Assembly (NCBI RefSeq): GCF_037975245.1
Contig: NC_092576.1
Span: 45,748,111-45,812,110 of the forward strand
DNA length: 64,000 bases
Direction of reading: 5' to 3'
Source of the DNA: Apostichopus japonicus
Lineage: Eukaryota; Echinodermata; Holothuroidea; Aspidochirotida; Stichopodidae
Part shown: in pieces, positions 4,302-59,900 of the stretch
Layout of the letters: every line of letters begins with the position of its first letter
How positions within the stretch are numbered: the first letter of the stretch is position 1
Translations under genes and position numbers: made by a program
Notes under the pieces: model-generated
What the model was told of the DNA's origin: nothing
Database searches by the model: none
What the model saw: the letters and a program-made list of their open reading frames with translations, nothing else

Positions 4302-4439
4302 GTATGTTTATAATAGTTTGTTTGCAAGCATTCCTAGTTATTATTAAATTATTATTAGTTATTATTAGAACAAACAAAATATGAGATCCTATTGACTGAC
4401 TTGTTTTTAGTTTGAGTTAGATTTACGTATAAAGACAAA

Positions 4440-5393: not shown

Positions 5394-5799
5394 ATTGCAT
5401 TTAGCAAACAGTATTTGTTATTCGGGTGCTACTTTACGATAAATAAAAAACAAACTGCTGAAAAATGAGATCTGTAAAAGTGATACTCAGAATGTTCAAG
5501 AGTCTCTACGATCACTTCCAAACTAGCGAGATGGTCATCATATAAACATAGAAAAAGAAACAACATATATAATTCATGACGTCATCATATAAACAGAAAG
5601 AAAGAGACAAAATAATTCATGACGTCAACATATAAACAGAGAAAAGACACAAAAGTATTAATGAAGTCATGTTAAGGGCTTTTGCAAGTCATTTACGTAA
5701 TGGCTTTCGACAGATGTGCACACGCAGCAGCCTTTAATCACTGATTTACGTTTTTGTAATAATAGTCCCAACAATAAGTTTGTACTTATTTAAGTGCAC

Positions 5800-5844
<45 letters not shown>

Positions 5845-6796
5845 TGGTATATTTGTTTACTTCAACGCATGATAGCTGGGACTTAGGTTTACCTCGGGGA
5901 TAGGTTTACCTGACACCAGGTAAACCTAAGTCTAGGGTCTTCTTGTTCAATCAATTTCACTTCCTTTGAGGAATGATAATTTCGAGTTAAGAGAAAACCT
6001 CATAAACTTTTCAATTCCGAAGTTACAAAAAAAAAATCGTTCATTTAAAGGGTAAAATTTCCCCTCAAAAGTGGAGGTAATTCCGAAGGGTATATAACAG
6101 AATTACGAACATGGTATATATGTTGATCCCAACTTTACACCTCGATTTTGACCAAATGCGGCAATATATAGTTCCGAAACTTAAAGGTTCCTCTAATTAC
6201 ACTGAAATCTTCGTAATTGTACTTTTTCTTCCATTAATTTGGGATATTTAAGAAAATAAGAGTTTCTATTTTAACTGGCAAATTTACACGTAACGAAACA
6301 ACGCCCCCACACATAAGCAGTTCTTTCTGTGTTCGGTGGCAGGGCAGTCGATCGGATCGTATCGTTGCTATCCCAATAGCCTACATTCAACGTTACTTTA
6401 TGTGGCCTAGCCATGTAGTCTACAAAGGAAAGTGCCGCAGGTTACCGTAAACGTTTCCCATTTGAAGTTGGCTTTTGGACTTTGGTGCAGTATATGCATT
6501 GTAAGTAAATTCCTTAAAAGTGTTCCGGATATATTAATAACATTTAGAGTAAATACCTTCATGCTGAACACAAATAAAGTAAGACCATGGTTAGAGTTAG
6601 AGTAGACTAGCCTAGGCCTAACGTTAGCCCTAAATTGGACCTATCAGTATTACTGGCTATGGTAAATCGCAGCTGCCTGCTACTGCCTTTGCTGATACTC
6701 GGAATATAAATGTGATACATAAATTAAAGTATATACTTGTAACAGACTGGTCAACCTACACATTTTGCAGCCTGGTGATCTTCCAGATCTTTTAAA
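5394..6796. other. Gene-free interval with a (TA)n run and a palindrome
   Basis: No exon recognised. It holds two near copies of a GACGTCA-T-ATATAAACAGA-AAAG motif around 5575-5650, a (TA)n microsatellite at about 5805-5840 and an inverted repeat at 5882-5930. The rest is AT-rich sequence with no coding signal that I can support. Confidence 0.5.
5882..5930. repeat. 13-bp perfect inverted repeat with a competing inner arm
   Basis: CTTAGGTTTACCT at 5882-5894 is the exact reverse complement of 5918-5930. A second copy of the left arm core (AGGTTTACCT, 5902-5911) can pair with the same right arm, so two alternative hairpins are possible. It may be the terminus of an old transposon. No role is shown. 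Confidence 0.6.
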
Positions 6797-7215
6797 GTAA
6801 AGGCTTAATAATTGACGCACCTCCAAATATTACTAGGCCTAGGCCTACTAGTACTAGGCTACTATTACTATATACTAGCCTACTACTACTGTAGCTAGTA
6901 CTAGCAACTATACAGCAGGCAACCATAACTTTTTGCAGCCAAGCAGAGGTAAATATTTCATGAGTTTGAATCCATTTCAGGTATTTGCTGATCAAATTGT
7001 TTCTGTGCATGTTTTGGGGCATTTGGAAATCTTACTCCCTAAAAATAACCAAAATTACCTCAATATAATACCACTAATCTCTGGGACCTGACCTTTCTGA
7101 AGTTAGAGGCTCAGAGCATAGCAAACAGCATCCAAAGATAATGGATGTTTACTTAGGCCTTCACTACAGTAAGCTCATCGACAGATGTGTCAATTTAGGA
7201 GTATGAAAGAACTTG
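6797..7215 (+). mobile_element. Dispersed repeat, copy 1 (TIR GGCTTAATAATTGACGCAC)
   Basis: Begins AGTAAAGGCTTAATAATTGA and shares a long collinear similarity with 22587-23170 in the same orientation, for example the blocks around TTTCATGAGTTTGAATCCAT, GGCATTTGGAAATCTTAC and CTCTGGGACCTGACC. The right inverted terminus visible in the other copy is not recognisable here, so this copy looks truncated or decayed. No protein is encoded. Likely a non-autonomous DNA transposon. Confidence 0.6.
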
Positions 7216-24009: not shown

Positions 24010-26675
24010 TATTTATTTAAGTTTACTTTGAATAGAAAGTATAAACCTTTTCATGATTTGGGGAACAATTGTTTATCTCATTAACCACTAATAACTCGCA
24101 TCGTGTGTTCCTCTAGATTAAAAGTAACACTTAACCCTAATATTTTAAACATATTCAACATGTAATGTTAATTTCCTTTTCATCCATGTTCCCTATCTAA
24201 TACTGGTATGACCTGTAACGTAAACAAAATGTTTATTACAACCTTACTTTGAATCTATAACATACTCTTGGTATCTGGAGTAGAATATCAGCTACCTTCG
24301 TTCCCGCTGTAACAATCTAGTCACGTGTCTGTGGCGTTACATTTCAAACTGTTTACTAGACAGGTACTGTGCGGTTATAAACCAAAACCATAAAACACAG
24401 GAACCCTAGCTTGAGTTCAATTTGTAAAGTAGAGTAAACATATAAGCCTACAGTAATTAACAGACGTAAAACAGTATATAGTCCAACTGCGACTAAACAT
24501 ACTTTTAATACATCTCGACAACAGTTATTTGTCAATGGCATGATAACTATGTCGGAAGTTCAAGCTGTTTGTCTTATTATTATAAAAATGTTTGAGGAAT
24601 CAGTAAGTCCTGTCAATAGGGACAATTTCCCTCTCATAATAACACACTTTACTGGCATCTTATTTCGTGCTCCGGCGCACTCGAAATGTCCATAGCATTC
24701 AGCATTGCATTGCTAATGCTCGCACAATCAATGCGGTTACTTTAAATCGTGACGGAAGAGAGTTTCCAATAATGTATGTTAATCCACATAATTTACGCCA
24801 TTCCAGGATACTGTGTGTGACTTCTAAACTAAAGTGTAAAGAATTTAGCAGTTTGCTATTTCAACTTTGACTGATACATATATATTTGGGGGGAGGGGAG
24901 CGGAGGGGGAGGAGAGAGGGCGTCTCTTTTATTTCTTTGTGTTTATTTTGCATCGTAAAAGACTCTTCTTAATAATTGAGAAGTTATTCTCTTCTGTATG
25001 GAAATAAACTGTTCACTAATAAATCCGATATTGTTAAAGTCCAAAATTCATTCATAAATATCATTAATGAAAACGTGATATCATATTCTCTAACATACTT
25101 TTTACGTGGTCGGTGTTTGTTCATATGATTTATTTCAATATTAGGAACTTTATTGCTTGTTTTCGTTCTATTACTTAGCTTCATTAATTAAGGAAGTGTC
25201 GATTAAATACAAACACGATACAACTTACTAAATAGACTTCGTTTACCGATATATTCCGATCACACTATTATAACAACTTACTTAAATATGTTTCTTACTT
25301 CGAAGAAAATGCAATAATAAAATAGTAATGAATACATACACAAAAAAAAATCCGATGTAAATATTAGGAAACCCCCTTATCTCGTCATATGCGACAGGTA
25401 GACAATGATCTAACAGTCTACTGCGACATCAAAATATATATATTCATATATATATATACTTTTGGAATATTTCATCCTTCGAAATTTTTGGATTACTTTT
25501 GGAATAGTGCCCGTAATTATATTTATCTTATTTGAAAATAAGTTGCCTGCCATGTGAATACTGTAAAAGTGTATTAACTAATCAGAATACTGCTTTTTAA
25601 CCACTATACTTTGCTTATACTCCAGCATAGGACCGTTAAACTAGATTGTAATATTTTGATTGCTATAAGGCTGGGTTTGTTCCGAAATGTGCAGATAAAC
25701 TTAAATGGTCTTAGATTTCTTTATAATTTGGTAGTTTCTGTTATGATATTGTTTTATATATCAAACTACATTATTAGCTGAACATCAATTAATAAATTAT
25801 CATATTAGGTCCGGAAACGAATCACAAACTACTGTCTATGGTAACCTAAAATATAAAAATGATTAATTAAACTGGAACAAACTGTACTTTTTGAAAATAT
25901 TTAATTAGTTTTAAACAACCGGAGAATCATTAGACCACTAATGCGGGTGTGTACGCCCCCCACCCCTTCCGCCTATTTTCCAATCTTACAGAAAAGTACT
26001 TATTCTCAAGAAATTGCATGTATACTTACTTACATAGGTCTCGTTTATAGCCTTAATATGGCCCAGAACGAGGCATTTGGCGTCTACCTTTTGAAGAAAG
26101 CCCCAACTATCACCCTCCCCCCTCCCTGTATAGGACACAGCTTCAATTACACCACATGGGCACCTTCTACTTTTTATACGTCCCTGATCCTGCTGTCATT
26201 ATAATTTATTAGCACAACCTTCCTTTTAGACCTTCTTTATAAATGCGTCCGCTATTAATATGCCTCAGAAGTACAGTTTGATGTTTGCAGTTTTTATTTT
26301 TTTAATGTTTTTAATTTTAATTTTTACGCACATCTCGCCCTCCCATAAATATTCTGGTCACTGTCTATGTAAGTCGGGAAGATTTAAGATTACTTACATA
26401 GCCCTAATTTATGGTCTCCATATGGCTCAGAATACATCATTTGACATCTAAAGTTTCATTTTTTCCTAGAGGAGAACCTCACGCTACACTACATAGCAGC
26501 TTCAGTGCCCCCAAGAAGACCCTTAATTATAACATCATCCCCTACCATACTCAGCTGGGAAAAATCATTTAATTTTCCTTGACTCTGAAATCTCGTGCAC
26601 GCTACAGTTCTACATCTACATCGGCAATTTTGAGTAATAAGGAAAATATGAAAAGATTTACCAAGATATACTTAC
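24010..26675. other. Mostly gene-free interval with two diverged repeat copies
   Basis: No supported gene. At about 26020-26090 and 26385-26450 a related motif recurs (ACTTACATAG..CT..TTTAT followed by ATATGGCxCAGAA), probably an old dispersed repeat. A 24356-24541 minus-strand frame is hydrophobic, but I see no convincing splice borders that would join it to the Ig exon upstream. Confidence 0.35.
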
Positions 26676-26997
26676 CTTCAACAACCAGTGTATAATTTGT
26701 GATCGTTAAGTTGTTACAAATGCATTTGTAAAATCCTTCGTGAACTAATGTCACCGGATTGATTTGAAGAGTACTTTGATGGTCCAGTGAAATTGAATCT
26801 TTTAAATTACTGTTAACGATGACAATTCGATTGAAAGATATGAAAATATTTCCAAATGTCCAACTTGTGTTCTGTCCACGTTTACAACAACCTTTAAAGC
26901 TCACTTCATCGTACATGTTAACGAAACGTAAAGAACTACCCAGGCTTAAACACACAAAGCAGCAAATTAGTAACATCTGAAAACATGAGGAAAACAT
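26676..26997 (-). CDS. Signal peptide + Ig-domain exon (5' end of an Ig receptor or secreted Ig protein)
   Basis: Seen: ATG at 26995-26997, a Cys-rich hydrophobic leader (MLLICCFVCLSLG core at residues 8-20), then an Ig-like fold with Cys, Trp, a STLQINPVTLVHEG strand and the YKC motif expected of the second Ig cysteine. The exon ends at a good donor (G|GTAAGT) in phase 1, the usual phase for Ig-domain borders. The signal peptide and Ig domain share one exon, whereas gene B splits them. No downstream exon (Ig, transmembrane or tail) could be recognised at lower coordinates, so the gene is either incomplete here, has a very long intron, or is a relic. It is oriented away from gene B, with about 4.3 kb between their starts. 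Confidence 0.62.
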
Positions 26998-27328
26998 GTT
27001 AATTTCTGTTAGATTATGATCAATTTGTTTAAAGAAAATAGCCGCTAACAGAGTTTTCTCTCATACACACAATATTGCAAAATGCTAAACAAGGATTTGA
27101 GTTAAATCAATACGAAGGAATAATATACGGAGGCCGGTAATGACCGCGTACTGATAAAACCATTAATTATAGACTAACAGACTGACAAGCTGTTCAAAGT
27201 TATTCAAAGTTTATCCAGCAGAAATCGCTGAGAGAACAGTTAACATGAGTTGCATTTCGCCCTTATATAATTCAATCTAAAAGAGAGATGACAAACAACA
27301 TACTCATCTACTGCCAAATGTCTACAGT

Positions 27329-31279: not shown

Positions 31280-31334
31280 ATGTTCGATGCAAAGATAATC
31301 TTCCTTTTCCTAGTTTTTTCAAGCCTTTCTGTGG
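31280..31334 (+). CDS. Gene B exon 1: signal peptide
   Basis: MFDAK followed by a hydrophobic core IIFLFLVFSSLSV, ending in phase 1 at G|GTAAGT. This is the standard layout for a secreted or type I membrane Ig protein. Confidence 0.72.
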
Positions 31335-34300
31335 GTAAGTTTGAAACGTCCGTACTTACACAATATAGAAGTTAGTATTTGTTTGCAGTTAAATTCTCTA
31401 GAACTTTTGCATTGCTTGTAACTAGAAGGAGGAATGGGGATTGGCACAAGAGGAAGGAGGACCACTTACATTTGAGTATACACAGCATAAAATCTCTCAA
31501 ACCATACAATGCTTCTTACAAGTCTTCTTCACACGGGGAATACAGAAACGTAATTTATGTATTTAAAAACATGTCATTGTACTGTATCAGGTACAATGAA
31601 GTGATATTTGGTTTATTTTCCTTCGCAGGTGTTGCTAAAGGTGGCAGATGTAAATCTCCTCAGTCCCTTGAAGTCGGAACACGAGGCGTAGTATCGTGTC
31701 AATTTACTGATGGATTTACAAGTATTCATTGGTATAATTCATCAGACTATATCAGTGATCTGCCTGTCGTTAGTTATGAAAATACAAAGAAATCTGGAGA
31801 AGGGTTTGAGTCCGGAGAATTCGATATTCAGGAGGACGGATCGTTGGTCATCAATCGAGTTGCAATAAAACATGAAACGACGTTTTCAGTTTTACAATTT
31901 AAAGCTGGAGAACAAGTTCCAAACATTTATCAAATAAACATACAGACCAAAAGTAAGTCCATGTCGGTTTTTCCTCACCAAAGTTTCAATGTTGATATGA
32001 AACCATTTTGCTTTTAAGGTTTTGACATTTTAAAACACAAATTGAAGTTGTTCATATGAATTATTCATTTCAAAATATACATACGAGCTTCAGAATATGG
32101 AGATATTATCATGTATAGTGCTTATACTTATTTAACATGCTTCATCTGAAATCCACAGTCACTCCACAAGAAATATGTCCAGTTATCAACCGGTGTGGTT
32201 GCATTGAAGATGTATGTTACAACCCGGGCATCGTAAGCAACATAGAACTAATATGCAAGGTAGAACGGAGCAGACCGCCAGTAGTCCTGACATGGAAATT
32301 AAGGACTTCCGAGGAAGACATAGAACTCGAATCAGTATCTTCAAATGATAGTGACAGTGTTACAACTTCAACAGCTGTTGGTATTTCATATGGTGGCCAT
32401 AATTTATCCTACGTAACGATGTTGGTCTGCGATGCAAATGATCAACTGAACTTGTTGACGAAAAGTCAATCTTTAATCATTATGCGTAACAGAGGCAAAC
32501 CTGTATCAACCGAACCTATCAATTTAACATTGAAGAAATCCACAGACATGAAACTATATTGTAGTGGAGCAAGTATTGTAGTTTGGGAAAAGAAACTTAA
32601 TGATGGCTCAATTAAAACTTTAATAGTTTCTTATGCTACAAGAAACTTTACAAAGATTTATGACAATGATTATTCGTTCGGGCAAGACGATTCTCTCTTG
32701 CTATATAATATTGACATTCATCATGAGGGGTTGTACAGCTGTGTATTTGGGAACCACAATACAGATGAAGTAAAGATATTCAACGTTTCAGTATATGGTA
32801 AGTATGTGATACAAATATCTTCTCTTTAACAGTTATATCTAGATACATTCAAAAAGGAACCCTTGAAAATATATTATATTTTCTGAGCATATATGAAATA
32901 AGATTGAGAAAGTTTAGTTTATATGAAGAACAAAATCGATGTTCTTGAATTTCATAACCGATGTACATCTATTTCTTAAATTCGCTGCCTATTTCATGTT
33001 ACTAATATAAGTTGCAACTTCATATTCCTCGTACAATAGTTGACCCCGTTCCCAGCTATCTTGTCATCGATGGTTGCGACCATACCAAATACTGTACTCT
33101 GGATGCACAGTTACACGAGGGAAGCCTTACCTGTTCTGTGTCAGGTATACGACCAGCCATTGAACTTGAATGGAGGCCGTTCCATACAAAGTCCCTTGAG
33201 ATTATGACTTTAAGCAATCAGCAATCTACAATCACGACCGAAAGTGGAACGTCAACAGTAGTCCACACTACCAAGTATATCATAAAGAAAGCGACTGATG
33301 AGAGACTAACCTTAGAATGTCGTGTGGTTGGAGAGAACGCTGGACTGTTTCCATTATCTTCCAAAATTGACTTGCTGCTGCCTCATAGTAAGTAGACTCA
33401 GCCTTTGCAATTAAGGTATTGATGCATATGACGTAGCATTCAATTATAAAAGGATGTAATATATTATCCTTCGATCGATATAGAGCCATCTATGGTTTAT
33501 TGAATCGGAATGTTTAAACTAAGAACCGTTCCGAAGATGTTAAGTTTTTTCCACACAAATGTTTCAATGACATGAAAACTGCATGGGGCTAATAGTCATG
33601 CGAGTACTTCAAATCTTTTTTCTTGATAACAAGAAAGAAATTATTGGTAAAATCCTTATAATATAATCATGATGAATATCATTTTCCATCAGCCATCCCA
33701 ACAGGTAGAGGGCAGCACACAACGTTGTTTCCGAGGACAGAACAGACAAACCCTCAACCTATAATCATTGCTGTAATTGCATTCGTCATCATTGTTATGA
33801 TCATATTAGGTCTGACAATCTTTTTCAAGAGTAAGTTCGATCAATACTCCTTCTATATGTATTGTCATATATAACAAAAAGTGACTTTGGTCAGTGAACT
33901 GTCTTCAATATCTATAAGTATACGAGATATAAACGATTACTTTTCAGAAGCGTCTACAATATCTTTCTCGAATAAGCAAGAAGTTCCTAATTAGCTTTTA
34001 ATTACTTTCTTGCCTATTAAGTTTAAAGTACCGCACTTAAGATTAAAGCTCCTTAAACACACACGTTCTATATGATTATCTCATAGGGTGTTGGTCGAAG
34101 ACAACTCATCACAGTGACATCTACGAGGTAATGACATATTAATCAAGAATATTCTCACTTGATAAAGACAACTTATGTAATATAACATCGTAACGATTGC
34201 ATAACTGCGTCAATTTGATTCGATATTTTAGGGGGAGGGGAGGGTTGGCTGGGGACGTGATTCAACAACATGATGGTATATGGAATGAACTCCATTACAA

Positions 34301-37300
34301 AGTCTATATTCCCATATTGAAGTATTTCCCTTATCACATTCAATACCAGAGCGAATTTACAATTATTCAATGACTCAGATGTTACATTTTGGTTATTTCA
34401 CTTAGTATGTATTTTAACTCTTAATTGGATGTCATCACATAAATATCTGTATAGGTATATAGCAATGTGTAAATTTTCGTACTATTCTTTAAGCTGACAC
34501 ATGTTCCTTCGTTCATTGATTTTTAGAAAGTGCCAATGATTCCCCAGGAACCAGGTAACTATTTAAATTCTTGAATATTGATCATACAAGCAAATACTAT
34601 TGGAATAACGATCGAATTCTCCAAAGCATGCGATTCATCCACATTCCATGTTTTTTTTCCTGTATGGTCCGAGTCTTACTTAAATGAGTTTGATTCCCTC
34701 ACGGATTACTGTAATTTTGAATTGTTTTTCATTTTACTAATATTTCATGATCAGTTTCACTAATTTGTCTATAATTGTAAACAGGTTACAAAAATTGTCC
34801 ACCCCAAACACTGATTTCTTTCGTATTGACCAGCTTTTATACAAACTGTGCAATAATTGCTATTTTCAGACATCCAGCAACCCACACACACTTTAAATGC
34901 ACATTCTTAATATGAACAACTGGGTACATGTTTCTCGATTTACAGATGGCCCTTGACTTCTGAGCCATCATACACTAGCCTGATTTACAAACTACATAAT
35001 CATACAATGATAACAATAGTTTTTGACCACACTTCCAACTGTTATCCTTTATAATTCCGGTTACCGATTGTTAACATGTGGAATGTAAAATGTAGTCAAT
35101 TTCGCCTACCCCCTCTACAACCTCTTACCCCCCCCCCTCCAACAAGGAGAAGAACAAATTAACATACAAAAGTTTTGTATGTGAGATCACTATTCAATTT
35201 TCTCTGATATTCTTGTCTTTGCAGAACATAAATCGATATTTATTAAGCAATTGAAACAAACCTATGGAGAATTTTACAGAACGGTCCAGCCAATACCATA
35301 TCTAATGGACAGAAAATATGCTATTAATGAACTGTTTGTTGAAGTTGGTACCGAATGTTTAATAAATGATGACAAGACACAGAGAGACAAAAGGTGGGTG
35401 TCTTTAGGGCCTCACCAAAATATCTTTATAGATCAACGAGTAAAGTCGAGACGTCGCATTATTGAAGCTGAGCCAGGGTATGGTAAGACTACATTGGTGA
35501 TGCAATTAGCATATGAATGGTGCGTGGGTCTAGCCGGACCCGCCACATCGAACATACTTATCGTAGTTAAGCTAAGACAGCTGCAAGGTGTATCATCTAT
35601 ATATGACGCCATTAGGAGGTTCTTACTACCAAGAGAGTCTCAGCTGAAGATTGAGACCATTAAGGATATTCTTGCTAAAGAACCCTCTGTGCTTTTGATC
35701 TTAGATGCGTTTGACGAATACCCGGATTATGAGTCGTTAACGCAAACAGATATTTTGGCCATTCTACAGAAGCAAATGTTCCCAAACTTCGATGTTATCC
35801 TTACTACCCGTTCAGCATACCTCCCCAGGCATTTTGCGCCTCAAACTAAGCGCATTCGATTGACGGGATTCGACAGTTACGCGCAAGACGAATATTTAAA
35901 GAAAGCTGTGACAAAGGATGACGAGAACGCTGCTGATAAGATTAAAGAATGGCTCCAAGATAACCCGGTGCTTGGTGATCTGTGTCAGGTTCCGCTCTTC
36001 TTTGTATTGTACGCTCATCTTAGCCTGGAGAATGACAACCTGAAGGACTGTTCCTCGGTTACCGTATTCTTCCGTTATATGGTTACTTGCTTTCACAGTC
36101 ATTTAACAAGGAAAGTTTACGATGAAAATGTTAAACCTCTTCACAGTTTTGAAGAAAATCATACAAAACTGAACAAGTTGGCTTTTGAAGCCCTATCTAA
36201 AACCGCCAAGAATGTAGAATGGACAAGAAACCTATTAGAGGAAACTCTGGGAAAGGCCTTTGTGGAGCGATACTTACAAATTGGTATTTTGAGAGAAGCA
36301 GAACACACTGAAGTCAATGACGAACCAGGCACTCTGGCCATGGACCACATTAGAATTGTCAAGAAAGTGAGATTTTATCACAGTCTTTTCTGTGAGTGGT
36401 ATGCAGCCCATTATGTAGCATCTATTATTTCTAGTAACTCACCCGGACAAAAGCCAGAAGAAAGAGCTTCTGAGATTTTGGAAGATTTCGACTTGTCCAA
36501 GTTCCAGTACATGTACCGGTTTGCGTGTGGGTTAAGCCCCACAGCTGCGATACATATCATACGCTATGTACAGGGAGCTGAAGGTAGTGACAAATTTGCA
36601 ACTTTGTGTATTCTGGAGCAGAAAGGGGCGGTAAATGACGTCATCAACACTGTGAAGGAGCTCTGTTCCAAGACAATTCATATCTCCAATGTGGATTCTA
36701 GACTGCTGCAGAGATCCGTTGTTCAACTCCTAGCTATCGCTTTCTCGAAGAAAGTAAGTGATTTGTAAATAATTTATTCAAAACTCCCTTCGTGTCGGGT
36801 ACTCTCCGTGTGAATCATCTACATTAACATTTCTGGCAAAATTTAATGATGTGCGTCTTAGTGTTCTTTATGAATGGTTTATAATTATACGGTTCTATTG
36901 TCCGCCATTTTTAATATAGGCATATTACATTGTGAAATCAATATGTTTTATTTTTACGTCTTATTCCATAGCTCATCATTCCTAGTCTCATCTTACACGA
37001 GGCATTCTCTTCTGTTGATACTGTAAGAGCAGAAATCATATTAAAATCTGGCCTGCGACTGTCGACTCAGAATACGTTTAAGGAGCTCTGGATTGAGCAG
37101 AATGGAGCGAGAATAACCGAACAAATCCTCACAGATGTTTTCTTGTATATTTTAAAGTGCGAGCGATTGTCGAGCATCTCGTAAGTGTGGCTGACGAGGT
37201 GAATTAAACTGTGTATCCAACTTTGAATTATGTGTATCTTGGTTTGTCTGCTGTAACTTCTTGTGTGTTCTGATTAGACGCTTTCGGTACATTATTATTA

Positions 37301-38764
37301 TCATATTATTATCATGATATTTCTAACAACCACATTGTAGATAGAAACACTTAACAAAGCATGATAAAAGAGAGCATTAGAAACTTGTATTCTACACAGA
37401 ATCAAATAATAAATAATAAAAATATCAAATTACACGCAAGGAAAAATGTTGCTTTATTTTTTTGAAGAAGAATGTTTTAACAGTTTTATATATGTAGTGT
37501 TTGCAATTTTATTTGTAAAACAAAACTTAAACTATATAACATTTTGTTTTCACACAGATTTTCTTATTGTCTACTACCATTGCACTTGAATAAAACGAGT
37601 GTGCTGTCGAAATTACAGGAAAAAAATATTGAAGGTAATAATTAACACCTAATTGGTGTCTGATATGTAATTAGTAATAATAAATATTGCTTTTGCATTC
37701 ATAAAAATATAGTACATAATTAAATAAATCAATAATGCATGTAAAAATAAATTTCGTTTTTTTTTGTCTTTTAGTTCTTTGGTATCCATCAGTTGTCTGG
37801 TATCAGCTCAATATTCAGTCTGGTCATTGGCAGGTTCGGAATAATTAAATAATTACTGCAATTCTGCTTACTGACAAGTATAAACTACTTACAACGTGTT
37901 TGATAATTACCTTCCGGTCTGGTTACTATCATTTTAATTGATCACTTTAGTGCATCGCTATTGGAAGTTATGTGTCTTTGAAAGCAACGGACTTAATATA
38001 TTATGATGGGTTACTCAACATAAGCAACGTAATGCATAACAATAGTTAGTTTGTTGTTCTAAAGAAAAGAACGAATAACACCAGGTTTAAAATTCACTAA
38101 ACTTACTGCCTCATATCGAAGCCAAATATTCATTAAATATAGAACATAGTGTTTTTGAAAAAGTGATATAAATAACTGCGATAATGATTGGCGTTGCAAT
38201 CATAATATTCAGTATAAATAAGGAAAATGTATAACTTGTTCATATAATCGTTGTGCTCAAGTTAGATTTGTTAGGGATGCTTGAATTGTTAGAATGTACT
38301 GTTGTCAGCGTTTGATAATTACTGTTTTTTGCAAGAATGATACCTTAAGCAAAATTAATTATTTTTTTTATCAAATAAATTGTTTTCGTTTCAGCATAAA
38401 ATTGGTTACAATGATCTGACAGAGGAAGAATATAACAAAGAGGTAAGGATTGAAATTTTTAAATGATTGAACAGATGTTTTTTGGGTAGATATTTGATCG
38501 GAATGAATTTAAATTTAAAGTTTTGATGAATGTTACCGAATTATTTTGCCATCCATCACCATGCTGTATGACGTCACTTCCGTTTCCATATCTCAGTAGA
38601 ACAGCGCGCTTTTCCAGTGAGCTTGAATTTAATACCGCTTTTATTGACATATATTTGTCCTTAAAATTGGCGCTCGTGTACTAAATTACTATTTGCTACC
38701 ATTTTTTAAAATCATTACGTATTTGCTTCACCAGATTCTTATGTTTGGAGAAATGAAGAACCAG
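31280..38764 (+). CDS. Gene B: Ig-transmembrane-NACHT-LRR receptor
   Basis: Thirteen exons joined by compatible phases: 31280-31334 (signal peptide), 31629-31952 (Ig1), 32159-32797 (Ig2+Ig3), 33040-33387 (Ig4), 33693-33830 (transmembrane), 34087-34127 and 34527-34554 (juxtamembrane), 35225-36753 (NACHT), 36972-37180 (LRR-like), 37558-37634, 37775-37833, 38395-38442 and 38735-38764. Together they give at least 1,175 codons with no internal stop. The start is chosen because the ATG opens a hydrophobic leader ending at a GTAAGT donor. Predicted topology: Ig ectodomain outside, NACHT inside. NACHT proteins (STAND ATPases) act as oligomerising switches in innate immunity, so a ligand-gated membrane sensor is the natural inference. 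The last exon and stop are unresolved: weak candidates are 38923-38961 and 40865-40905. Without transcripts, alternative splicing or two overlapping genes cannot be excluded. Confidence 0.75.
31629..33387 (+). CDS. Gene B ectodomain: four Ig-like domains in three exons
   Basis: Exons 31629-31952, 32159-32797 and 33040-33387, all entering and leaving in phase 1. Domains 1 and 3 resemble each other (VSCQF..IHWY..GSLVINRVAIKHE versus LYCSG..VVWEK..DSLLLYNIDIHHEGLYSC). Domains 2 and 4 also resemble each other (a Cys-rich start, then LxCxVxxxRPxxxLxW and a late LxC strand). The order is therefore V-like, C-like, V-like, C-like, which suggests duplication of a two-domain module. Domain 1 lacks the second Ig cysteine: the YxC position reads TFSVLQF. 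Domains 2 and 3 are fused in one exon, implying intron loss. Several N-x-S/T sites fit an extracellular location. The ligand is unknown. Confidence 0.75.
33693..33830 (+). CDS. Gene B transmembrane exon
   Basis: A polar Pro/Thr-rich stalk (GRGQHTTLFPRTEQTNPQP) is followed by about 22 hydrophobic residues beginning IIIAVIAFVIIVMIILGL and then FFK as a stop-transfer charge. Phase 1 at both ends. It is flanked by Ig exons upstream and cytoplasmic exons downstream. Confidence 0.78.
34087..34554 (+). CDS. Gene B juxtamembrane exons with a tyrosine motif
   Basis: Two small exons, 34087-34127 and 34527-34554, link the membrane helix to the NACHT exon. Across the junction they read SDIYEKVPMIPQEP. 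A tyrosine preceded by Ser-Asp-Ile and followed by Glu-Lys-Val has the general shape of a phosphotyrosine docking site or a YxxPhi sorting signal. That role is inference. Confidence 0.55.
35225..36753 (+). CDS. Gene B NACHT exon (intact Walker A and B)
   Basis: One 1,529-bp exon holds the whole ATPase and helical region. Walker A is PGYGKTT with the lysine codon at 35485-35487. Walker B is LLILDAFDEY with Asp codons at 35704 and 35713 and Glu at 35716. A sensor-like ILTTRSAYLP follows, then DNPVLGDLCQVPLF, which resembles the NLR winged-helix region. Further on, VRFYHSLFCEWYAAHY near 36367-36414 matches the F-H-x(4)-E-x-x-AA signature of NLR helical domains. The end carries the family block YMYRFACGLSPTAA. 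The NACHT core, Walker motifs and spacing look functional. The exon enters in phase 1 and leaves in phase 0, exactly as in gene C. Confidence 0.88.
36972..38764 (+). CDS. Gene B C-terminal exons: one LRR-like unit and a conserved tail
   Basis: Exons of 209, 77, 59, 48 and 30 bp. The 209-bp exon and the start of the 77-bp exon resemble a single leucine-rich repeat (FKELWIEQ...LTDVFLYILKCERLSSISFSYCLLP). The 59-bp exon carries WYPSVVWYQLN, shared with genes A and C. The 48-bp exon carries an acidic LTEEEYNKE, paralleling LSDEEYENK in A and VDRDYDRE in C, so a tyrosine in an acidic context is kept in all three. Confidence 0.68.
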
Positions 38765-44236: not shown

Positions 44237-47200
44237 ATGGCTGACGTCAAAATATCTGACGGTAAGTTCCTCTCTGTTTCTGCGTATTGTGTTTTGATCT
44301 GTTTGGGCTTTAGTATAGACTTTTGTCCGCATTATCGTCTACGAAACTTTAAAGAAGTACGTTTAATTTCTTCTGACGGATATAATAAAGAAATACTCGA
44401 ACAGATTGACCTTGCTTTACATGAAATGAAAACTGCGTTATCGATGTCTTATATTTATCGTTTATAACAATTGTAACAATGGTATTTGTTACATAATTAT
44501 GGATAATGATGCAGCGTATAGTTTACTAACTTGCATGATTATGTTATTAACTATCACAGTCCAGATAATTAGGGTGACGCCATTAACAATTATTACAAAT
44601 GTACCTGTAATACGTAACATAATTCATCTCCTTCTTCTGTTACTGATTGAACTGGGTTTTTATATATTTTTTCTTATAATTCTATTATAGGAAAATACAC
44701 TAGATTCAAGACTGGTTTGAAAATACATTACGAGTCATTATATAGCACAGTGCAACCAGTTCCATGCATTGGCGGAAAACGTTACCATGTAAATGATTTA
44801 TACCAGAGCGTTGGTGTTGTATACCTTAAAACCAATAGGCCTGCTTATAGAGGCCCGCTATGGGATCGACTCGAATCATATCATAGTATTTTGAATGACG
44901 AAAGAGTCAAATCTGGAAAGCGTATCATCGAAGCCCCTCAAGGATATGGCAAAACAGTACTGGCTCTTCAATTTGCTTTTGATTGGTGTAAACAAGTCAA
45001 GGATTCTCCAATGAAAGATGTCGATATTTTCATATTTGTTCAAGTAAAGAAATTAAGTTATGTAAAGTCTTTCCCAAAATTAGTCAAAAGAATGTTTTTC
45101 CAACAAGACTCTAAAATTACTGAGAAGAACGTCCACAACATTCTTCTCACGTCGAAGTCAGTGTTGTTGCTGGTTGATGTCGGTAGAGAAGATATCGGTA
45201 ATTACATTAAAGAAGGAAGTGACTTGGATCGCATCATTCAAGGAGAGGTGTATCCAAATTTCGAAGTCATCCTAATGACGAGACCGTTATCACTAGAGCT
45301 AGAACCGCAAGTGAAACGTCTGAAACTTATTGGTTTTGACAAGAAAGCCCAGGAAAATTACATTTCTAAATCTTTACTGGACAGTAATCAAGCTAAGCTA
45401 GAGAAGACGAAAAAGATCATTCTAGATAATCCGGTTCTTGGTGATTTATGTAAAGTTCCTCTACTGTTTGCAGTGTTTTCACACCTAGGACATGGGAACG
45501 ACAACATCTCTAACTTTACCACCCTTACCAACTTTTTCAATGAGATCATAAAATCTTTCCATCAGCAATTTCGAAAACACGGTGCGTTAAGTGAACAGTT
45601 TAAGCACATGGACTTATTCGAAGGTGCCCATCTGAAACTAAACAAAATGGCTTTTGATAGACTTGTAGAAGACAACGATAATGCTGAGTGGGAACTTGAT
45701 GAAATAAATAGTCTCTTGGATCGCAACTTTATCGAAAAATACTTGAAAACAGGAATTCTCCAGCTGGATGAGAATATCCTTGTTGAGTTAGATTCGACGA
45801 GCGATGGAATGCAATACGAGAAGACTGTTAGGTTTTATCATAACATACTAACTGAGTGGTACGCGGCCCATTATTTGGTGGAGTCTGTACACAAAGCCGA
45901 TGAACTGAAGGAAGAGCTTCAAGAAGGTTACGTCTTTGACGTATTGGACAACTTTGAGCCATCTCAAGTACAATGTCTGTATCGGTTTGCTTGTGGAATC
46001 AACTCTGCGGCAGCGAAACACATCATCAACTACCTGCAGGAATATGAAGACAATGTACAGTTCAGTATGTTGTGTAGAGTGGAACAGACAGGAAGCGTGG
46101 ATGGAATATTGCAGAACATCAAAGAAATGTTCGCACGGGAATTCCAAGTTCATGACAGGGATTCCGCATTCGGTCAGAGAACCTACATACAGTTAATGGA
46201 AATTGCAGCCAGAGAAAAGGTAACTTATTTGATGTTTGTATAACGATTCATTCATTGTAATAATGGATCCAATTTGTATAATTAACGTATGACACATTAT
46301 GTGTTGTACATGAATATGATACATGCATGCAGAGTACATGCAAATATTACTAATTCAAGTCGCTCTGTATTCTTACTTTCGCCTTTTTTACATACTATAA
46401 ATTAAACATAGATACCCTAACACGTCGCAGAAAACGTTCCTTTCAATCTTGTTTTAAGATACATTTGATTGCAAATGCTTGGTAGGTAAAGTATCCACCG
46501 AATAGTTATCAACCACCCAGAAACGCCTTACATAATGTACACCCGAGGCATTGCTTTAATTTCACCTATATAAAGTGTGTAATGTACCATAAAGTCAGCC
46601 CAGGATTGTTCTTATCTGATCAAATTGTTTGCATTTCCATCGCCTCAGGAGGGTAATTGTCAATCCCCAAGACGTTATCAAAATAACTGCGATAATTACC
46701 TGATAACAAGAAACGCTTTGAGACACGAAAGGATATTCAAGATTAATAGTCGCAAGCAATATCTTGCATTGCTATTTTCCTTGATATCTTTGTTTCAAGA
46801 CCGTAGGTAATTCCACAGAATATTACCTAATATTAACTAATGTTCGGTTTAAAAGTTTTTAAATTTTGTTAACTCAACGATAATTGGAGGACAATTATGA
46901 TGATTTTTAATTAACATTGGCTGTTTTCATATTATTTTATTCGTATTTTATCATTTATCATATTTTTTAATTCAAAGTATTATTTTAAGTGTTTTGGCTA
47001 TTTGTCTTTGACAGATATGTATCTCGCGCCTCTATCTCAATGAAACATTCAACACAGTATGTATGTATACGGGTGATATCATACTTAACACACATGTTCG
47101 TCTCCCACCTCTGCAAACTCTGGAGAGTATTTGGATTGAAAAGAGCAGGGTTTATTTCCTAGATGAAGACGTCGATGGAGTATTTTTCTATGTATCCAAC

Positions 47201-49472
47201 TGTCCTAATATCAAGATCATTTAGTAAGTAACTTGGTTTGAAGTAGGATATACATGGACGAGTGATTGGTTTCTCCACATGGTGAAATACCACAGTCACG
47301 TAGTGAGGTACACTGAATAATTGGGCCTCAATAATCCCAGTGACCCTACTGCATATTATTTCCTGATTACAAGGAATCCATTCCGAGTCCCCACTGATAC
47401 CAATGGATTCGATGAAATCTCATTATTATGCTCACGATGACGTGAATGGTCGTATACTTCCACTTCCCTATTTGTTTTTAATCAAAACAGAACAGTTATT
47501 AAGTAAATTATCTAGCAAACATAATCAAGACATGTTGAACTTTACATCCAAATGTTATTAACATTGGTAGTTTTCAGAAACTGTATAGATGCTTTACAAC
47601 GATGCTTAGAAACAAAATGAATTACTATGTAATACTGCTGACTGTCGTCGAGTATAATACCTTTTGACGTAATCTACTACCAGTAGGATATTTGTGTCGA
47701 TCTCTAAGTGTTACCATAGGGATAGGATTAAGGTCAGTCTAACACTAAATATCACACATGTACGCATTAGGTATCAGTCGTTGAACTTTTGTTAACCTAG
47801 TGTTTATCATTTAATGTACAATTTAATAAACATTTAACGTAATATTTCCCTATTTTCCATCCAGTTTCGGCAATTGCTTTCTCCCACGGTCTATCAAGGA
47901 AAGTCCAAATCTTGCAATACTTCGAGAGAGAAATGTCGCAGGTACAGACAAAATGTTCCTACTGAGATGTTAAAACTTACAACTTGACGTCACGATTTGC
48001 AATACATACCACATTAACATAGATTGCCATGTGTAGTTTCATAGGTAGATTGATACATGTGGCAAGTAATGTATAAGATAATGGATGCTCCACCAATAAT
48101 ACAAGTTCGTTTGATGCCTTATATATGTCGAGGGATGTATAAATTTGTGTATTTCTCGACGTATGTTTTAACAAGTGAAGGCTCAGTTGTAAAAATAAAT
48201 GATGTTACCATATTACCTGATACCACGATCCTTTTACAACATTCATACATTAATTTTTTTTTTTCAGTTCATTGGTTTCCTTCGGTAAACTGGTACTATC
48301 TTAACCTAACTTCGAGAACTTGGGAGGTATGTTATCAAGATGACATTACATACAAAAACATTGAACATTAGACTTCTTGAAAGTTCTTATATCTGTCGTT
48401 AATCTCCTAAAAACACTGTTCCTCTAATTTAATTCATACAAGTGATTAGGTGACGTTATCGATAATTATCACCATGTTATGGTAGGGAAATGTTATTTAC
48501 ATTATAAACATTTACAAAGTCGTTATTGTTATCATAAAAGATCTGTTAAAACATTGTTTTTTTCATTATATACCGAGGACCACCAGATCGTTATTATAAA
48601 TTAGTTAACAAAGTTTCCGGATATTTACCCTTGAATGGGAAAGCCGTCCAAAGCAATGTCAAAGGTCAATAACTGGGAAGACTTTAGGAGCTTTATGTAA
48701 CGTATCTTGTATGATATAATCATAATGAACACACAAATCATCACGTGATTTGTCATTAATTATTATATTGTAGAGAATAAATAACATTTTTGTTGCTAAG
48801 TGTTGTAATCCAGCCACTGAAACTGTAACGATCATGTTTTCATATTTCTCTTTCAGCGAAACTCAGCTCGCAATCCGCTGGTTGACAGGGATTATGATAG
48901 AGAGGTGAATCACAGTTACTTTCAATTATTATCGTGATTGTGAATTTGTTAAAAAAGGTTTGAATGGTTGATAAATATAGTAGAAACCCCAGAGGACAAA
49001 CATTTTGCACTATCACTAGTCAGTGCTACTAACATTACTGCTTGCAGTACAATGTGTTTATCGAGTTAATCAACATTTAACAACAACAATTTTTTTCGTA
49101 TATCGCCTTATTTGAGTATCTAATGCTGTGAAGTCATCTTAAATTCAACTCAGTTACCAAGTATAGTACCAGTTTCTTCACATATTGAAAACTGATCATT
49201 TTTCCTGGATTATAAAATTAAGGGCCTGGAAGAGTAATCACAGAAATGCAACCACAGTCCAGTGTATATTCATGTCCAATCTGATTTGTATCATTGCATA
49301 TTATTTTTAATACATAAATCAGTAATACCTGTACATATAAGCTTTAATCATAAATAGGTAAACCTAGATACTAGTTGGTAGTAATCATAAATGTAATGAC
49401 TAATTCTTGCTTTCTTTCCAATTTTCGTCGTATTTGCAGAAAGCTGATTTTGATGTTTTGCTGAAGCTTTAA
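44237..49472 (+). CDS. Gene C: cytosolic NACHT-LRR paralogue of gene B
   Basis: Exons 44237-44261 (start), 44691-46219 (NACHT), 47015-47223, 47865-47941, 48268-48326, 48857-48904 and 49440-49472 (stop TAA 49470-49472). They total 1,980 bp, a 659-residue protein. The ATG has a good context (ACCAAGATGG) and encodes only MADVKISD plus one base before a GTAAGT donor. There is no leader, Ig domain or membrane helix, so the product is predicted to be cytosolic. Exon lengths 1,529, 209, 77, 59 and 48 equal those of gene B. The terminal exon (KADFDVLLKL) occupies the place of the 30-bp exon in A and B but ends in a stop. No DEATH, CARD or PYD adaptor domain is visible, which is unusual for a soluble NLR. 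Confidence 0.82.
44691..46219 (+). CDS. Gene C NACHT exon, degraded Walker B
   Basis: Same length as in gene B. Walker A is QGYGKTV with lysine at 44951-44953. Walker B reads LLLVDVGRED: the first Asp (45176) is kept, but the second Asp of the usual D-x-x-D-E is Arg (45185) and the following Glu (45188) is kept. The sensor-like stretch is ILMTRPLSL. NPVLGDLCKVPLLF, VRFYHNILTEWYAAHY and CLYRFACGIN are all conserved. The protein may bind nucleotide but hydrolyse it poorly. That is inference from the residues. Confidence 0.85.
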
Positions 49473-53966: not shown

Positions 53967-56900
53967 CTGAAGCATGAACAAAAGTAAGAGTGACTCTCAT
54001 TGGCTAGTGAACATCACGTGATAGCAATCTATTTTACACTCACATACAAGCAATGGCGGCGGAAGCACTTTTAATCTGGGGGGGGGGGGGGCACCGACAT
54101 CAAAGGGCACTTTGCAGAAATTCGATTGGAATGATACAGCCTTATATTTAGTACCCTTTATAACTCTTATTGTATTATCTTATTTGCGTATACACATCAC
54201 TCCATCAACGCTCCCCCCCCCCCCACCCTCAAGGAAAATATGCATACTAGCACTGCAATATCCAATGCGCAAATTGGGAAACAAGGAACAAGTTTTGTTT
54301 TGAGTAAAAACGAGGTGAAATCATGCTAGTTGCTAATGTAGGAATCTTCCGAATAAGAGTTTATTTCTTGATAATATCTTAACAATTTTTTTCCATTCGA
54401 AACAGCTTTGAGTTTGACCCGCAGAAATTCATTAAAAGTCAGGGGCGTAGCCAGGATTTGAAAGTTGTATACACGACTATCTGAGCGGAGCGCCACCATC
54501 GGTTGGCGCGGAGCGTACAAGAAAATTGTTGGTTTTACAAACCCCTCAGATGGCCGGAAACTTCCCTTCCCGAGTGTACATTCTGGTTCCCTGGCCTCTT
54601 GCTAACTTGAGACACCTCAATTTTTATGTAGAAAAAGGGCACATTTTTAACCTGAGGAAAAGTGGGGGGGGCACGTGCCCCCTGTGCCCCCCCGGTTCCG
54701 CCGCCCTTGCATACAAGATCCTCCAATAGGGTCAGTGACATCAAGCAGACGCTCAGACGGACGTGGCTCGAGGAGCAGAGCATCCCGAGCCGCCATTTGC
54801 GTTCGAATAAGTCGATGATCAGTGAGTTCTCCAACGCACATGAATTCTCCTATCTAACTGCTTTCTTTAAAACACATAGCCATATCCGTGATAATAAAGT
54901 GAGTACAGGAGAGTTGCAGTTTCCTTGTCATTTGAAATGGTTAGAAATAAAGATAACTGTCTTTGACCCCAGTTTTCATTTTGTTAAGAAAAAATCATTG
55001 AACTTTGGCTTTTGTATACGATATGCTTAACGATAATTAAAAGCAACACACGTTCATGCTTGTCACCACGTCATTATTAACTATATATATGATACGGTGG
55101 TGTCATTGCATACCTTCGCTTTCTTGACTGGGACTACTTTAACTGCATCTTCTGAGAGGCAAAAGTCATAAAGTTTACAAATTCCCTGCTGGCTAAGCAA
55201 GATTTTCTTTGTTGATAATCCAGGATGTAGAAACTGTAAGAGAGGAAACAAACAAATGCTTATAACAAACCACCTTTTCAATATTTATTTGGATTACTTT
55301 GGAAATAAGTTTAGTTTAGTAGAAAAAAAGGATCAGGAGGGACACCTAAGTCCCCATCAAGGACCCTATAGAGAGAGGAAAAAAACTGAAGACACAAACA
55401 CTCAGACCCGATTACAATGCTTAAAGTGCTTGTCCAAAGCATTCTTAAACCCATTGACACTACTTGCAAGTACAACTTTCTCAGGTAAACCATGCCACTC
55501 ATTCACAAGCCTATTAGAAAAAAAGTTATGCCGAATATTAATTCTACTATGTGACTTTTGGAGTTTAAGACAATGACCTCTTGTACAACTACTGTTAGCA
55601 AACATGAAAAAGTCGGTAAAGGATAAATTGTCGAAACCATACACAATCTTGAAAACCTGGATCAAGTCCCCACGTAACCTCCTAAGCTCCAGTGTGGTGA
55701 GATTCAACAGTTGTAACCGCCTATAGTAAGGAACCCATTTTAAGGAACTAAGCATCCTAGTAGCCCTCCTCTGGACCTTTTCAAGTACTTCCTTATCCTT
55801 AGCAAAATAAGGGTTCCAAGCCTGCACAGCATACTCCAGATGAGGCCTAACCAACTGCTTATAAAGCCTAACGACGATGTCCTCTTTCAGGAAACTGAAG
55901 TTCCTGTTGATCATACCTAAAACCCTATTACCTCTTTTAGCAGCTTCAAGACAATGTTTAGAAGGTTGCAGAGATGAGTCAATGAAGACACCTAGGTCTC
56001 TTTCAACAGAGACCTCCTGTAACTCCACACCATTAAGATTGTATGTAAACTTGCGGTTACTACTACCTATGTGCATTACCTTACATTTATCAATATTAAA
56101 AAGCATTTGCCACCCCTGAGACCAGGAAAAAATCTTATCCAAGTCCGCTTGAAATTTCTCAGAATCGCTTATGGAAGAGACCTCAGAATACAATTTGGTG
56201 TCATCGGCAAACTTCTTAGCTGTACACAAAATATCTCCGTCGATGTCATTTATATAGGCAACAAACAACAAGGGACCTAATACAGACCCTTGTGGAACCC
56301 CACTAATAACGTTCTGCCATGAAGAAGCACAGCCTTTAATTACCACCCTCTGTTCCCTATTACCAAGCCAATTCCCGATCCAAGACAGTAAATTCCCTAT
56401 GACACCTATGCTCTTCAGCCTAAGTAATAGACGCTGGTGGGGAACTTTATCAAAGGCCTTCTGGAAATCCAGGAACACAACATCTACTGACTTCTGCCTA
56501 TTAAGTGAGCTTGTTACGTCTTCCATAAACTCAAGGATATTAGTGAGCCAAGACCTTTCTTGACAAAAGCCATGTCGAGACTCCCTGATCAAAGACTGAC
56601 TGCTGAAGTGACAGACCATAGACTTTTTTACAATAGACTCCATGACCTTACAAACTACACTAGAGACAAACCGGCCTATAATTACAGGACTTAGACTTAT
56701 CACCCTTCTTGAAAATTGGGGTAATATTAGCACATCTCCAGTCCCTAGGAACATAACCTTCATCCATAAATTTACTAAAAACCAACGAGAGTGGAACGCA
56801 GAAATGTTGTGCAAAAGTCTTCAACAAATACGGATGGATTGCATCCGGTCCAGAAGCTTTAGAAACATTTAGACGAAGCAGCTCCTTTAAGACAACCTCT

Positions 56901-59900
56901 TCCGAAAATAAGACCGTATCCAGTTTAGACCTATCACTGCCCCCCTGAAAATCTGGAATACTACTCGTATCTTCCCTTGTGAAAACCGACACAAAATAGT
57001 TGTTCAAAAGATCTGCAAGATCCTGACTATCAGTAACTATGTTATCAGCCTGTGGTGCCCTTAGAGAAACAATTGCATCTTTAACTTTCTGCTTTGACCT
57101 GACATAAGAAAAGAAGGCTTTTGGGTTATCCTTAATTTGTAGGGCAATGCTTTTTTCGAAATTCAATTTTGCATCAGAGACTAAGCATTCTACTTTCAGC
57201 TGATGAATTTTGAACTTGGCCAAAAGAGATTCAGATTTAGTCCTCCTAAACAACTTCCACATTCTACGTTTTTGCCTAATTGCACATCTAACTTTCTTAT
57301 TCATCCAGTGAGGCATACTGTTTTTACGACGACGATTCTTCCACGGAACATGATTTTCCATCATTACCTTTAATTTATCAGCAAAACAAATCCAAGACTG
57401 AGAAGCACCCATATCTCTAAACAAATTAATCCAATCTGTACCCTTTAGTAAAGTTTCAATTGCCTCTGTATCTGATCTCGAACAATCAGGGAATTTTTCA
57501 TTGCTAACAGAATTTACGACTTTGCAAACAACATCAAAAGCTAGTTTATCATGATCACTGGTTCCTAGTTTTCCTAGACCCGTCAAATCAACAACATTGC
57601 TTGGATTAGAACTCAAAACAAGATCCAGGATGTTATCCCCCCTAGTAGGGAAAGTAACATGTTGATGTAAAAAGCAATCTTGCACAACATCTAGAAAATT
57701 ACTACCCTTCCTACTACTAGAACCATCTATCCAATTAATGTCAGGAAAATTAAAGTCGCCCATTATAACAACATCACCTTTAGCAGCCTTTCTAATTGAA
57801 TCAAACAGCACGACATCATTATCATCGCTGCTGTTAGGAGAGCGGTAAACAACACCCATAACGTCCCAGGACCTCTTGGAGTTGTTTGTGGACAACTCGC
57901 ACCAGACAGAATTAACAAAAGCCCCTTGCAACTGAGATTTCTCGACACTTACAATGTCATCCCTAACATACAATAAAACTCCCCCACCAACCCCATTATG
58001 AGTATCCCTTCTGTCCTGACGATACACAACATACCCCGGGTGAGAAACCTCAGCACTATCAATGTCCTTCCTTAACCAAGATTCGGTGATACCAAACACG
58101 TCCGGTTTCAGATCCTCAAGAAGCACAGTAAATTCAGCAAATTTTTTACGAATACTTCTAGCATTGGTAAAGACAATCTTCAGCTTATCCCTGAATCTAT
58201 GTACCTTAGCATGCCTCCTAAAGTTAGAACTATGACTATCACTTTTCTTGCTTTCAAAACGCCTAAAATCGCCTCCACTAGGAACATAATCCTCATCCAA
58301 AATTATTCCTGACCTCATCGCCCCCCCCCCCCCCAATTTAGTTTAAACATAGCCGTTCAACAGAGTAATTCACCATCCTACCAAACAACGAGATCCCAGT
58401 ATTAGCTAAGTGCAAACCATTCCTGGCGAACAAATCCCTTCTACCCTGGAAAGATGACCACATGTCAACAAATGTGAAGCCGAAGTCGGCACACAGACTA
58501 TACAATAAACCATTCAAAGTTACAATCTTTTCTGACAGAACCTTGTTGTCAAATCTTGGCAACAAACTACATATGACATCTTTAGCCCGAGTTGATGCTA
58601 GTCGACACATCAATTCGTGGTACCTAGACTGAATAATGTTTTGTGGCTCCTTCTGCACATTATTGGTGCCTACATGGACCACAACCACCTCCTCATCTGA
58701 CACGATTTTGTTTACCCTTTTACTGACATCCTGGATTTTAGCACCTGGCAAACATACCCTGACCCTTTTTGCCTTATCCGCCCTGCAAGAAGTCTTTAAA
58801 CCTAATATAATCCAGGTTTACCTACTTGTTGAACATTTGACTTGTCATAAGTTGTTATACAACGATACGAATGGTAGCCGTTTAAAATTAAATGCATTGA
58901 TGGAAGCACATAGCAGGTTTATCGTTTGTGCTAAACATACCCCATAGGAATGGATGGCAACCATGCCCTCTGTTATGTCCAAAACGTATCTTTTAATCTC
59001 TGCCATATCAAGGGGTGCGTGAACATGTGTAGCACCCTCTGTTTCCAGACTTGTGTTAACACGTACATCCAGAGTTTCGCATATGAAGTGTTCTTGAACA
59101 AGATATAGATGGGCTGAATAATAGCAAATATTCATCAATATTAATATAAATTATATTATGAAAATTTAAACTTAAGAGAAAGGAAATGATATAAACAAGA
59201 AAACTGATGATGTCTTCCCGACATCGAACTAAGACGGTAAGCGTTAAAGTTATTTTAATTTAGTGTTAAATGTGGCAACTTTAAAATAACGAGACAAAAC
59301 AACAACAGTGAACGAGAGTTTAAGCATTCAGCCTGCCATACTTTTTATTGGATAGTACGATTTAGCTCTACTGGTACATTGCAATGGTGCTCACACGGAT
59401 GAAGTGTCATAAATATCGTCAATCTTGTGAGAATGTAAATTATTTGTCTGATTATCAACGGTTACCATAGAAACAAACACACAGAGAACTGTTGACTCTA
59501 ATATAAGACACATCTTTCATTCCGTTATTTGTTACGTGGTGTTTCTGTGTCATATTTACATACGAATTCCGTACGAATGTTCATACATTTCTCTAATTGC
59601 ATGCTCATTTAGTATTTAACCATTGCTTTCACCTGCATCGATGCATATCCCTTCTGCTATTGGAAGATTTCTGCTATTCGGCATTTCAAGCACTCGTTTA
59701 ACATAATCATCCCAGTGAAGCTCTTTCTTTTGCAAAGATTTTTCTATTGAGAGAAAAAAAGAAAAAGGTGACTAATACTCCTTTTTATATATGGTAAATA
59801 ATATGTTATTTTGACAAGTAAACTAAATTGTAATGTAATTGAATAGAAAAGACCTTCAGAATTTACAAATTTACAAAGTTATATCCAATTCTTAACCAAT

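Follow-up and report, generated by a model that had tools for sequence, protein, structure and literature searches.

Does this stretch of sea cucumber DNA encode a surface receptor whose cytoplasmic part is a NACHT ATPase, or have unrelated parts merely come to lie side by side? NLRs are taught as cytosolic sensors, and the locus in question lies in a window of 64,000 nucleotides, the whole stretch of Apostichopus japonicus DNA analysed here (C16:45748111-45812110, within a genome of 671.6 Mb in 35 contigs). The initial annotation had placed a signal peptide, four immunoglobulin (Ig) domains, one transmembrane helix and a NACHT domain in consecutive exons of one strand with agreeing phases and read them, if they form one transcript, as a single receptor. 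The observation is confirmed and its interpretation supported: every exon that it named is present with AG/GT borders, the joined frame is open, and exon phase, linkage in paralogues and the published A. japonicus receptor AjNLRC4 agree on the architecture. We suggest, with a probability of about three in four for architecture and mechanism together, that the gene encodes a single-pass type I surface receptor that works as proposed below.

We read the locus as a single gene because its paralogues keep the order and strand of the Ig and NACHT exons. Twenty loci, all on contig C16, were fetched around NACHT exons among those most like the window's. Homologues of exons 3 and 4 lie upstream of NACHT, with order and strand kept, in 18 of the 20, and an exon-2 homologue does so in 15. 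The search for acceptors was confined to phase 1; at all 18 Ig-bearing loci it gave an AG precisely at the codon where exons 3 and 4 are expected to begin. Each of these loci also offers a place between Ig4 and NACHT for a phase 1-1 membrane-helix exon (18/18, with an uncertain start at L013 and no chance control). A lenient search with no chance control gave, at each of the 15 paralogue loci to which it was applied, a candidate first exon that is hydrophobic and ends in phase 1. Genome-wide, at least 144 Ig4 matches and at least 171 distinct NACHT exons were listed, and a pair was called linked when NACHT lay on the same strand no more than 12 kb downstream. Of the 66 open Ig4 exons among the best 74 of the 144 matches, 52 are linked, as are all 8 stop-bearing ones, mostly at a distance of 1.4 to 5 kb, which makes 60 links against 0.11 expected by chance; for the remaining 70 listed the figures are 5/62 open and 8/8 stop-bearing. 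Altogether, among the matches listed, 73/144 Ig4 (57/128 open and 16/16 stop-bearing) are linked to 73 different NACHT exons, and wrongly arranged pairs number zero. Chance joining of unrelated exons is ruled out by this linkage, and we are highly confident that the predicted architecture is encoded by one gene.

The joined model runs from the signal peptide through four Ig domains to a single membrane helix; two tiny cytoplasmic exons, the NACHT exon and five tail exons come after it. By its sequence, the identity of the NACHT domain is certain: the window protein matches NACHT in Pfam with an expectation value (E) of 3.5e-16, NACHT was matched in 21/21 aligned exons, and the nearest solved sequences by profile are those of NLRC4 (2.6e-19, positions 74-282). 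The protein thus carries a NACHT of NLR type. It has no N-terminal CARD, PYD, DED or Death domain of a canonical NLR, and the signal peptide, Ig domains and transmembrane helix are in place there. Neither CARD nor leucine-rich repeat (LRR) was among the Pfam hits of the exons, ectodomain and tail, the gene's end not being included, and the joined 141-residue tail, which stops before the gene's end, gave no Pfam match. The joined ectodomain scores above the Pfam cut-offs (C2-set_2 2.4e-8, V-set 1.6e-7, Ig_3 1.9e-7); the Ig1 exon by itself is weak (V-set 0.0059, below cut-off). V-set is matched at E <=0.01 in 11/16 aligned Ig1 (exon-2) sequences and is found in 18/19 aligned exon-3 sequences, and the Ig cysteines are conserved among the aligned paralogue exons. 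Besides the N-terminal hydrophobic segment (mean Kyte-Doolittle hydropathy 1.88), there is one strong segment, at residue 480 (3.34).

The initial annotation knew of no described family with Ig, transmembrane helix and NACHT in this order. AjNLRC4, however, had already been published with it (PMC8699970). AjNLRC4 is a coelomocyte-membrane receptor with Ig outside and NACHT inside; its Ig part binds microbes, the receptor dimerises and drives phagocytosis, and its intracellular part interacts with beta-actin (PMC8699970). Its accession is MN607598 (PMC11932488). The AjNLRC4 oligonucleotide EX-F has a single match in the genome, with one mismatch, at C16:4497304 (locus L040), where EX-R, too, shows one mismatch and qF and qR fit exactly, a total of 4/7 oligonucleotides. 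The AjNLRC4 oligonucleotides (0-1 mismatch) and one for beta-actin, which matches exactly, indicate that the genome is that of A. japonicus or a close relative. Homologues of exons 2, 3, 4 and NACHT follow in order at L040, and the published LRTD motif is present. When LRTD is set to 177, the L040 helix falls at 480-501 (published 483-503) and NACHT starts at 597 (published 600), a numbering in which exons 6 and 7 are taken to contribute 23 residues. The oligonucleotide matches, the layout and the fit of the landmarks together place AjNLRC4 in the family of the window gene. The window gene is, in its predicted layout, a further member of the published AjNLRC4-type architecture and not the first of its kind.

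Several observations weigh against this reading. The gene is known here from its genomic sequence, and two of the 20 fetched loci (L023 and L025) have no Ig exons. Among the matches listed, 71/144 Ig4 have no listed NACHT partner, and for 98/171 NACHT exons the 12 kb upstream contain no listed Ig4. L040 yielded only a weak first exon, and the AjNLRC4 oligonucleotides IN-F, IN-R and the small interfering RNA were not found in it with up to three mismatches allowed. Cytosolic caspase-1 is reported to bind the Ig part of AjNLRC4 and not its NACHT (PMC11932488), a result that a simple type I topology leaves unexplained. Finally, the paper on a second A. japonicus protein, AjNLR-new (PIK48001.1; 1,197 residues with Ig, transmembrane segments and NACHT), claims the reverse topology (PMC13133943).

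By analogy with AjNLRC4, we infer the topology, ligand class, clustering and output of the window protein as follows. Four Ig domains (V-C2-V-C2) outside the cell would bind a ligand, probably a microbial one. One helix would span the membrane, with a short linker on its cytosolic side followed by the NACHT domain, the NLR helical region and a short tail. Receptors clustered by the ligand would bring their NACHT domains together at the membrane, where oligomerisation would follow; together with actin and other partners, the NACHT oligomers would then set off phagocytosis or death signalling, as has been reported for AjNLRC4. Taken by itself, clustering-driven NACHT signalling is a mechanism towards which we lean slightly.

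An alternative that we regard as unlikely, and that nevertheless survives best, is that several products arise from the locus: the complete receptor, a form without exons 6 and 7, and perhaps an Ig-transmembrane form without NACHT. Exon 1 runs from phase 0 to 1 and exons 2-5 each from 1 to 1, hence any of the latter could be skipped; the NACHT exon (exon 8, 1,529 bases) runs from 1 to 0. Exons 6 and 7, which were absent from the initial annotation and whose phases fit, are jointly a multiple of three. Counted up to the last residue of exon 8, including both gives an open frame of 1,034 residues and omitting both gives one of 1,011, but either of them by itself breaks the frame; the two must therefore both be used or both be skipped. 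However, exon-7 candidates with PM at the corresponding place occur in 11/18 paralogues, which suggests regular use; exon-6 candidates ending in EE or DE occur in 8/18 (both counts by eye from the two best candidates each, lenient and with no shuffled control). An exon-7-like candidate is also present in L040. A tyrosine signalling motif across exons 6 and 7, DIYEKV, was set aside, the tyrosine not recurring there in the exon-6 candidates (by eye).

Somewhat more doubtful is the proposal that the NACHT part is a membrane-associated scaffold for signalling or the cytoskeleton, with no ATP-driven switching. It would agree with the reported binding of beta-actin by the intracellular part of AjNLRC4 (PMC8699970). 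Against it, the P-loop lysine, the Walker B residues and a TTR motif are invariant in all 21 aligned NACHT exons, and the invariance of P-loop and Walker B suggests that nucleotide binding matters; the neighbouring gene C, whose Walker B is degenerate by eye (LLLVDVGRED), shows its loss in at least one family copy.

We consider it very improbable that NACHT lies outside the cell and Ig inside, as claimed for AjNLR-new from a TMHMM prediction and the binding of recombinant NACHT to coelomocytes (PMC13133943). The binding of an added recombinant domain to cells is no proof of native topology. In the window protein, the first hydrophobic stretch is N-terminal and finishes with exon 1, as expected of a signal peptide that is cleaved off; of the seven N-glycosylation sequons in the 1,034-residue model, six fall in the Ig part; the Ig cysteines and the NACHT nucleotide motifs are conserved; and AjNLRC4 is reported with Ig outside (PMC8699970). 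The AjNLR-new topology would turn round if its first segment were a signal peptide, as in the window protein. No more credible is a pair of adjacent genes, an Ig-transmembrane receptor and a separate NACHT protein, joined by an accident of phase: the model does come from a genomic frame, and some relatives (L023, L025 and gene C) have a NACHT exon with no upstream Ig exons, but the arrangement is repeated in 18/20 loci and 73/144 Ig4 matches listed with none misordered, exon phase is conserved among paralogues, and AjNLRC4, whose locus is laid out alike, is published as a single protein with both parts.

The one-gene receptor layout is found at no fewer than 57 NACHT exons with an open Ig4 upstream, and the exon plan is the same in the 18 examined closely. 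The comparison reveals a family of several dozen predicted holothurian genes, some of them without the outer part. Simple counting, without confidence limits, gave ratios of non-synonymous to synonymous substitution rates (dN/dS) of 0.23-0.64 for the Ig exons (11 comparisons in four close pairs) and 0.22-0.84 for the NACHT exon (five pairs), and both halves look to be under constraint. Upstream of the Ig-less NACHT loci L032, L033, L034 and L036 (on C17, C22, C12 and C7, respectively) no recognisable domain was seen in 5.5-6 kb, no Pfam scan having been made there. Two open reading frames at L035 (C12) looked death-effector-like by eye; Pfam finds no family in either, and the DED label given to this locus in the tree described below is unsupported. 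At L023, open frames of a long-terminal-repeat-type retroelement (3476-7214, by eye) lie upstream of the Ig-less NACHT exon. More Ig4-like exons with no listed NACHT partner, some in tight arrays, occur on C16 at ~0.3-1.5, 7.8-7.9 and 8.9-9.4 Mb and on C11 at ~3.7-4.0 Mb; these are perhaps related Ig receptors with other tails.

All 16 stop-bearing Ig4 matches among the matches listed lie on contig C7, between 3.1 and 12.3 Mb. Each of the 16 is followed, 4.1 to 7.1 kb downstream, by a NACHT exon whose match contains no stop; the open frame measures 510-512 residues in 15 of these exons and 421 in the other. The two C7 loci that were read, L031 and L038, share two identical stops in Ig4, and one of them has an additional stop in a weak match to the helix exon (E 0.007). 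Over 182 codons, their NACHT exons show 7 synonymous and 9 other differences, which gives a ratio of non-synonymous to synonymous differences per site (pN/pS) of 0.36. A FastTree phylogeny (midpoint root, partial sequences of 86-309 residues for eight rows, L037 left out) places these two loci within an Ig-bearing clade, with nearest-node support of 1.0, 0.998 and 0.86, then 0.60; other deep nodes are weak, with support down to 0.2. A single loss of the C7 ectodomain probably preceded the multiplication of the copies, with the NACHT part remaining under constraint. We found no account in the open-access literature of 16 genes on one contig with a dead Ig4 exon and an open NACHT frame. As natural losses of the ectodomain, the C7 genes allow a test of what the Ig part contributes. 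The wider picture, to which we give even odds, is of several dozen diverse surface STAND receptors, with variable Ig domains, a conserved NACHT motor and oligomerisation at the membrane, whose ectodomain was shed at least once, after which soluble NACHT genes multiplied on C7. If this is true, a single family allows surface NLRs to be compared with cytosolic ones.

The exons of the window gene are collected in the table. The five tail exons extend the open frame to 1,175 residues; a final exon and stop codon were looked for and not found, and the 1,175-residue model thus lacks its end. Exons 9-12 have counterparts in at least one neighbouring family gene, some weak or by eye only.

Predicted exons of the Ig-transmembrane-NACHT gene, in window coordinates
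Feature	Position	Strand	Content and support
Exon 1	31280..31334	+	Start codon and signal peptide MFDAKIIFLFLVFSSLSVG; last residue split with exon 2
Exon 2	31629..31952	+	Ig1 (V-type); matched in 15/20 fetched loci
Exon 3	32159..32797	+	Ig2 (C2-type) and Ig3 (V-type); matched in 18/20 fetched loci
Exon 4	33040..33387	+	Ig4 (C2-type); matched in 18/20 fetched loci
Exon 5	33693..33830	+	Stalk and single transmembrane helix
Exon 6	34087..34127	+	Juxtamembrane segment, acidic last residue
Exon 7	34527..34554	+	Tiny exon, KVPMIPQEP
Exon 8	35225..36753	+	NACHT ATPase and helical region; P-loop AEPGYGKTT, Walker B LDAFDE
Exon 9	36972..37180	+	Tail, LRR-like by eye only; homologues in gene C and L037
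Exon 10	37558..37634	+	Tail; L037 E 7e-4, gene C E 0.009
Exon 11	37775..37833	+	Tail VLWYPSVVWYQLNIQSGHWQ; weak donor gttcgg; counterparts in gene A, gene C and L037
Exon 12	38395..38442	+	Tail; weak: L037 E 0.04, genes A and C by eye
Exon 13	38735..38764	+	Tail; no homologue in the stretches searched

The end of a NACHT exon and the tail exons of a preceding Ig-NACHT gene (L016) lie at 1-340 and ~620-2361 (+) of the window, which therefore sits in a cluster of Ig-NACHT genes. Gene C has a NACHT exon at 44705-46219 (+) that is 36% identical to exon 8 and barely above the Pfam cut-off (NACHT 3.3e-6), with tail exons at ~47015-48905 that resemble the tail of the window gene; no Ig exons of its own were found upstream of it within the window. 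Elsewhere, an open frame at 26602-27060 (-) is weakly similar to Ig (best E 8e-5) and hydrophobic over an N-terminal stretch, open frames of a long-interspersed-element-type retroelement occupy 55402-58817 (-; endonuclease and reverse transcriptase by eye), and a tandem repeat with a 45-base unit runs from 2732-3400 and on, with ~15 copies to the end of the searched stretch.

Among known systems, vertebrate NLRC4 is cytosolic, with an N-terminal CARD and C-terminal LRR. Its NACHT is the closest solved one to the window's by profile; the window protein has Ig and a transmembrane helix instead of CARD, and no LRR by Pfam. In the accessible text of an amphioxus paper, several NACHT combinations are named, none with Ig (PMC2575513). 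NLRs counted as CARD-type are expanded in an earlier-studied sea cucumber (Holothuria glaberrima preprint, PMC13228809). In another holothurian, Chiridota heheva, 6/53 NLRs have other domains, including Ig V-set; the accessible text, however, mentions no membrane helix, and the word 'transmembrane' is absent from it (PMC8913654). AjNLR-new shares Ig, transmembrane segment and NACHT with the window protein and is of similar size (1,197 residues against the 1,175 modelled without the end), but it is described with NACHT outside and Ig inside between two membrane segments; this comparison is by description only.

AjNLRC4 has, like the window protein, an Ig ectodomain, a transmembrane segment and a cytoplasmic NACHT, with neither CARD nor LRR, and its landmarks (LRTD 177-180, transmembrane 483-503, NACHT 600-757) differ by no more than a few residues from LRT 174, transmembrane 479 and NACHT 603-753 in the window protein. 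It is a separate gene, the L040 NACHT exon being 41% identical to the window's, and it was published with two Ig domains and two transmembrane segments, whereas the window protein has four Ig domains and one strong helix. The published second segment (776-795) maps onto a NACHT stretch of L040 (772-790). Its window counterpart, residues 773-791, has a mean hydropathy of 1.43, against 3.34 for the membrane helix, and eight residues of this stretch or its direct neighbours are invariant in 21/21 aligned exons, two of them Ig-less. Because of this low hydropathy and these conserved NACHT residues, we infer that the published second segment is a misprediction and would instead be a conserved NACHT helix, and therefore we do not count the mismatch against family membership. 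The published Ig positions coincide with Ig1 and Ig3; Ig2 and Ig4 were probably missed. We found no mention in the open-access literature of the family's size, of four Ig domains or of the overlap between second segment and NACHT helix. The true domain map would be four Ig domains and one transmembrane helix, which calls two published topologies into question. The two surface NLRs of the sea cucumber, AjNLRC4 (PMC8699970) and AjNLR-new (PMC13133943), were studied one by one; the family described here turns their layout from an oddity into a sizeable branch of the A. japonicus NLRs.

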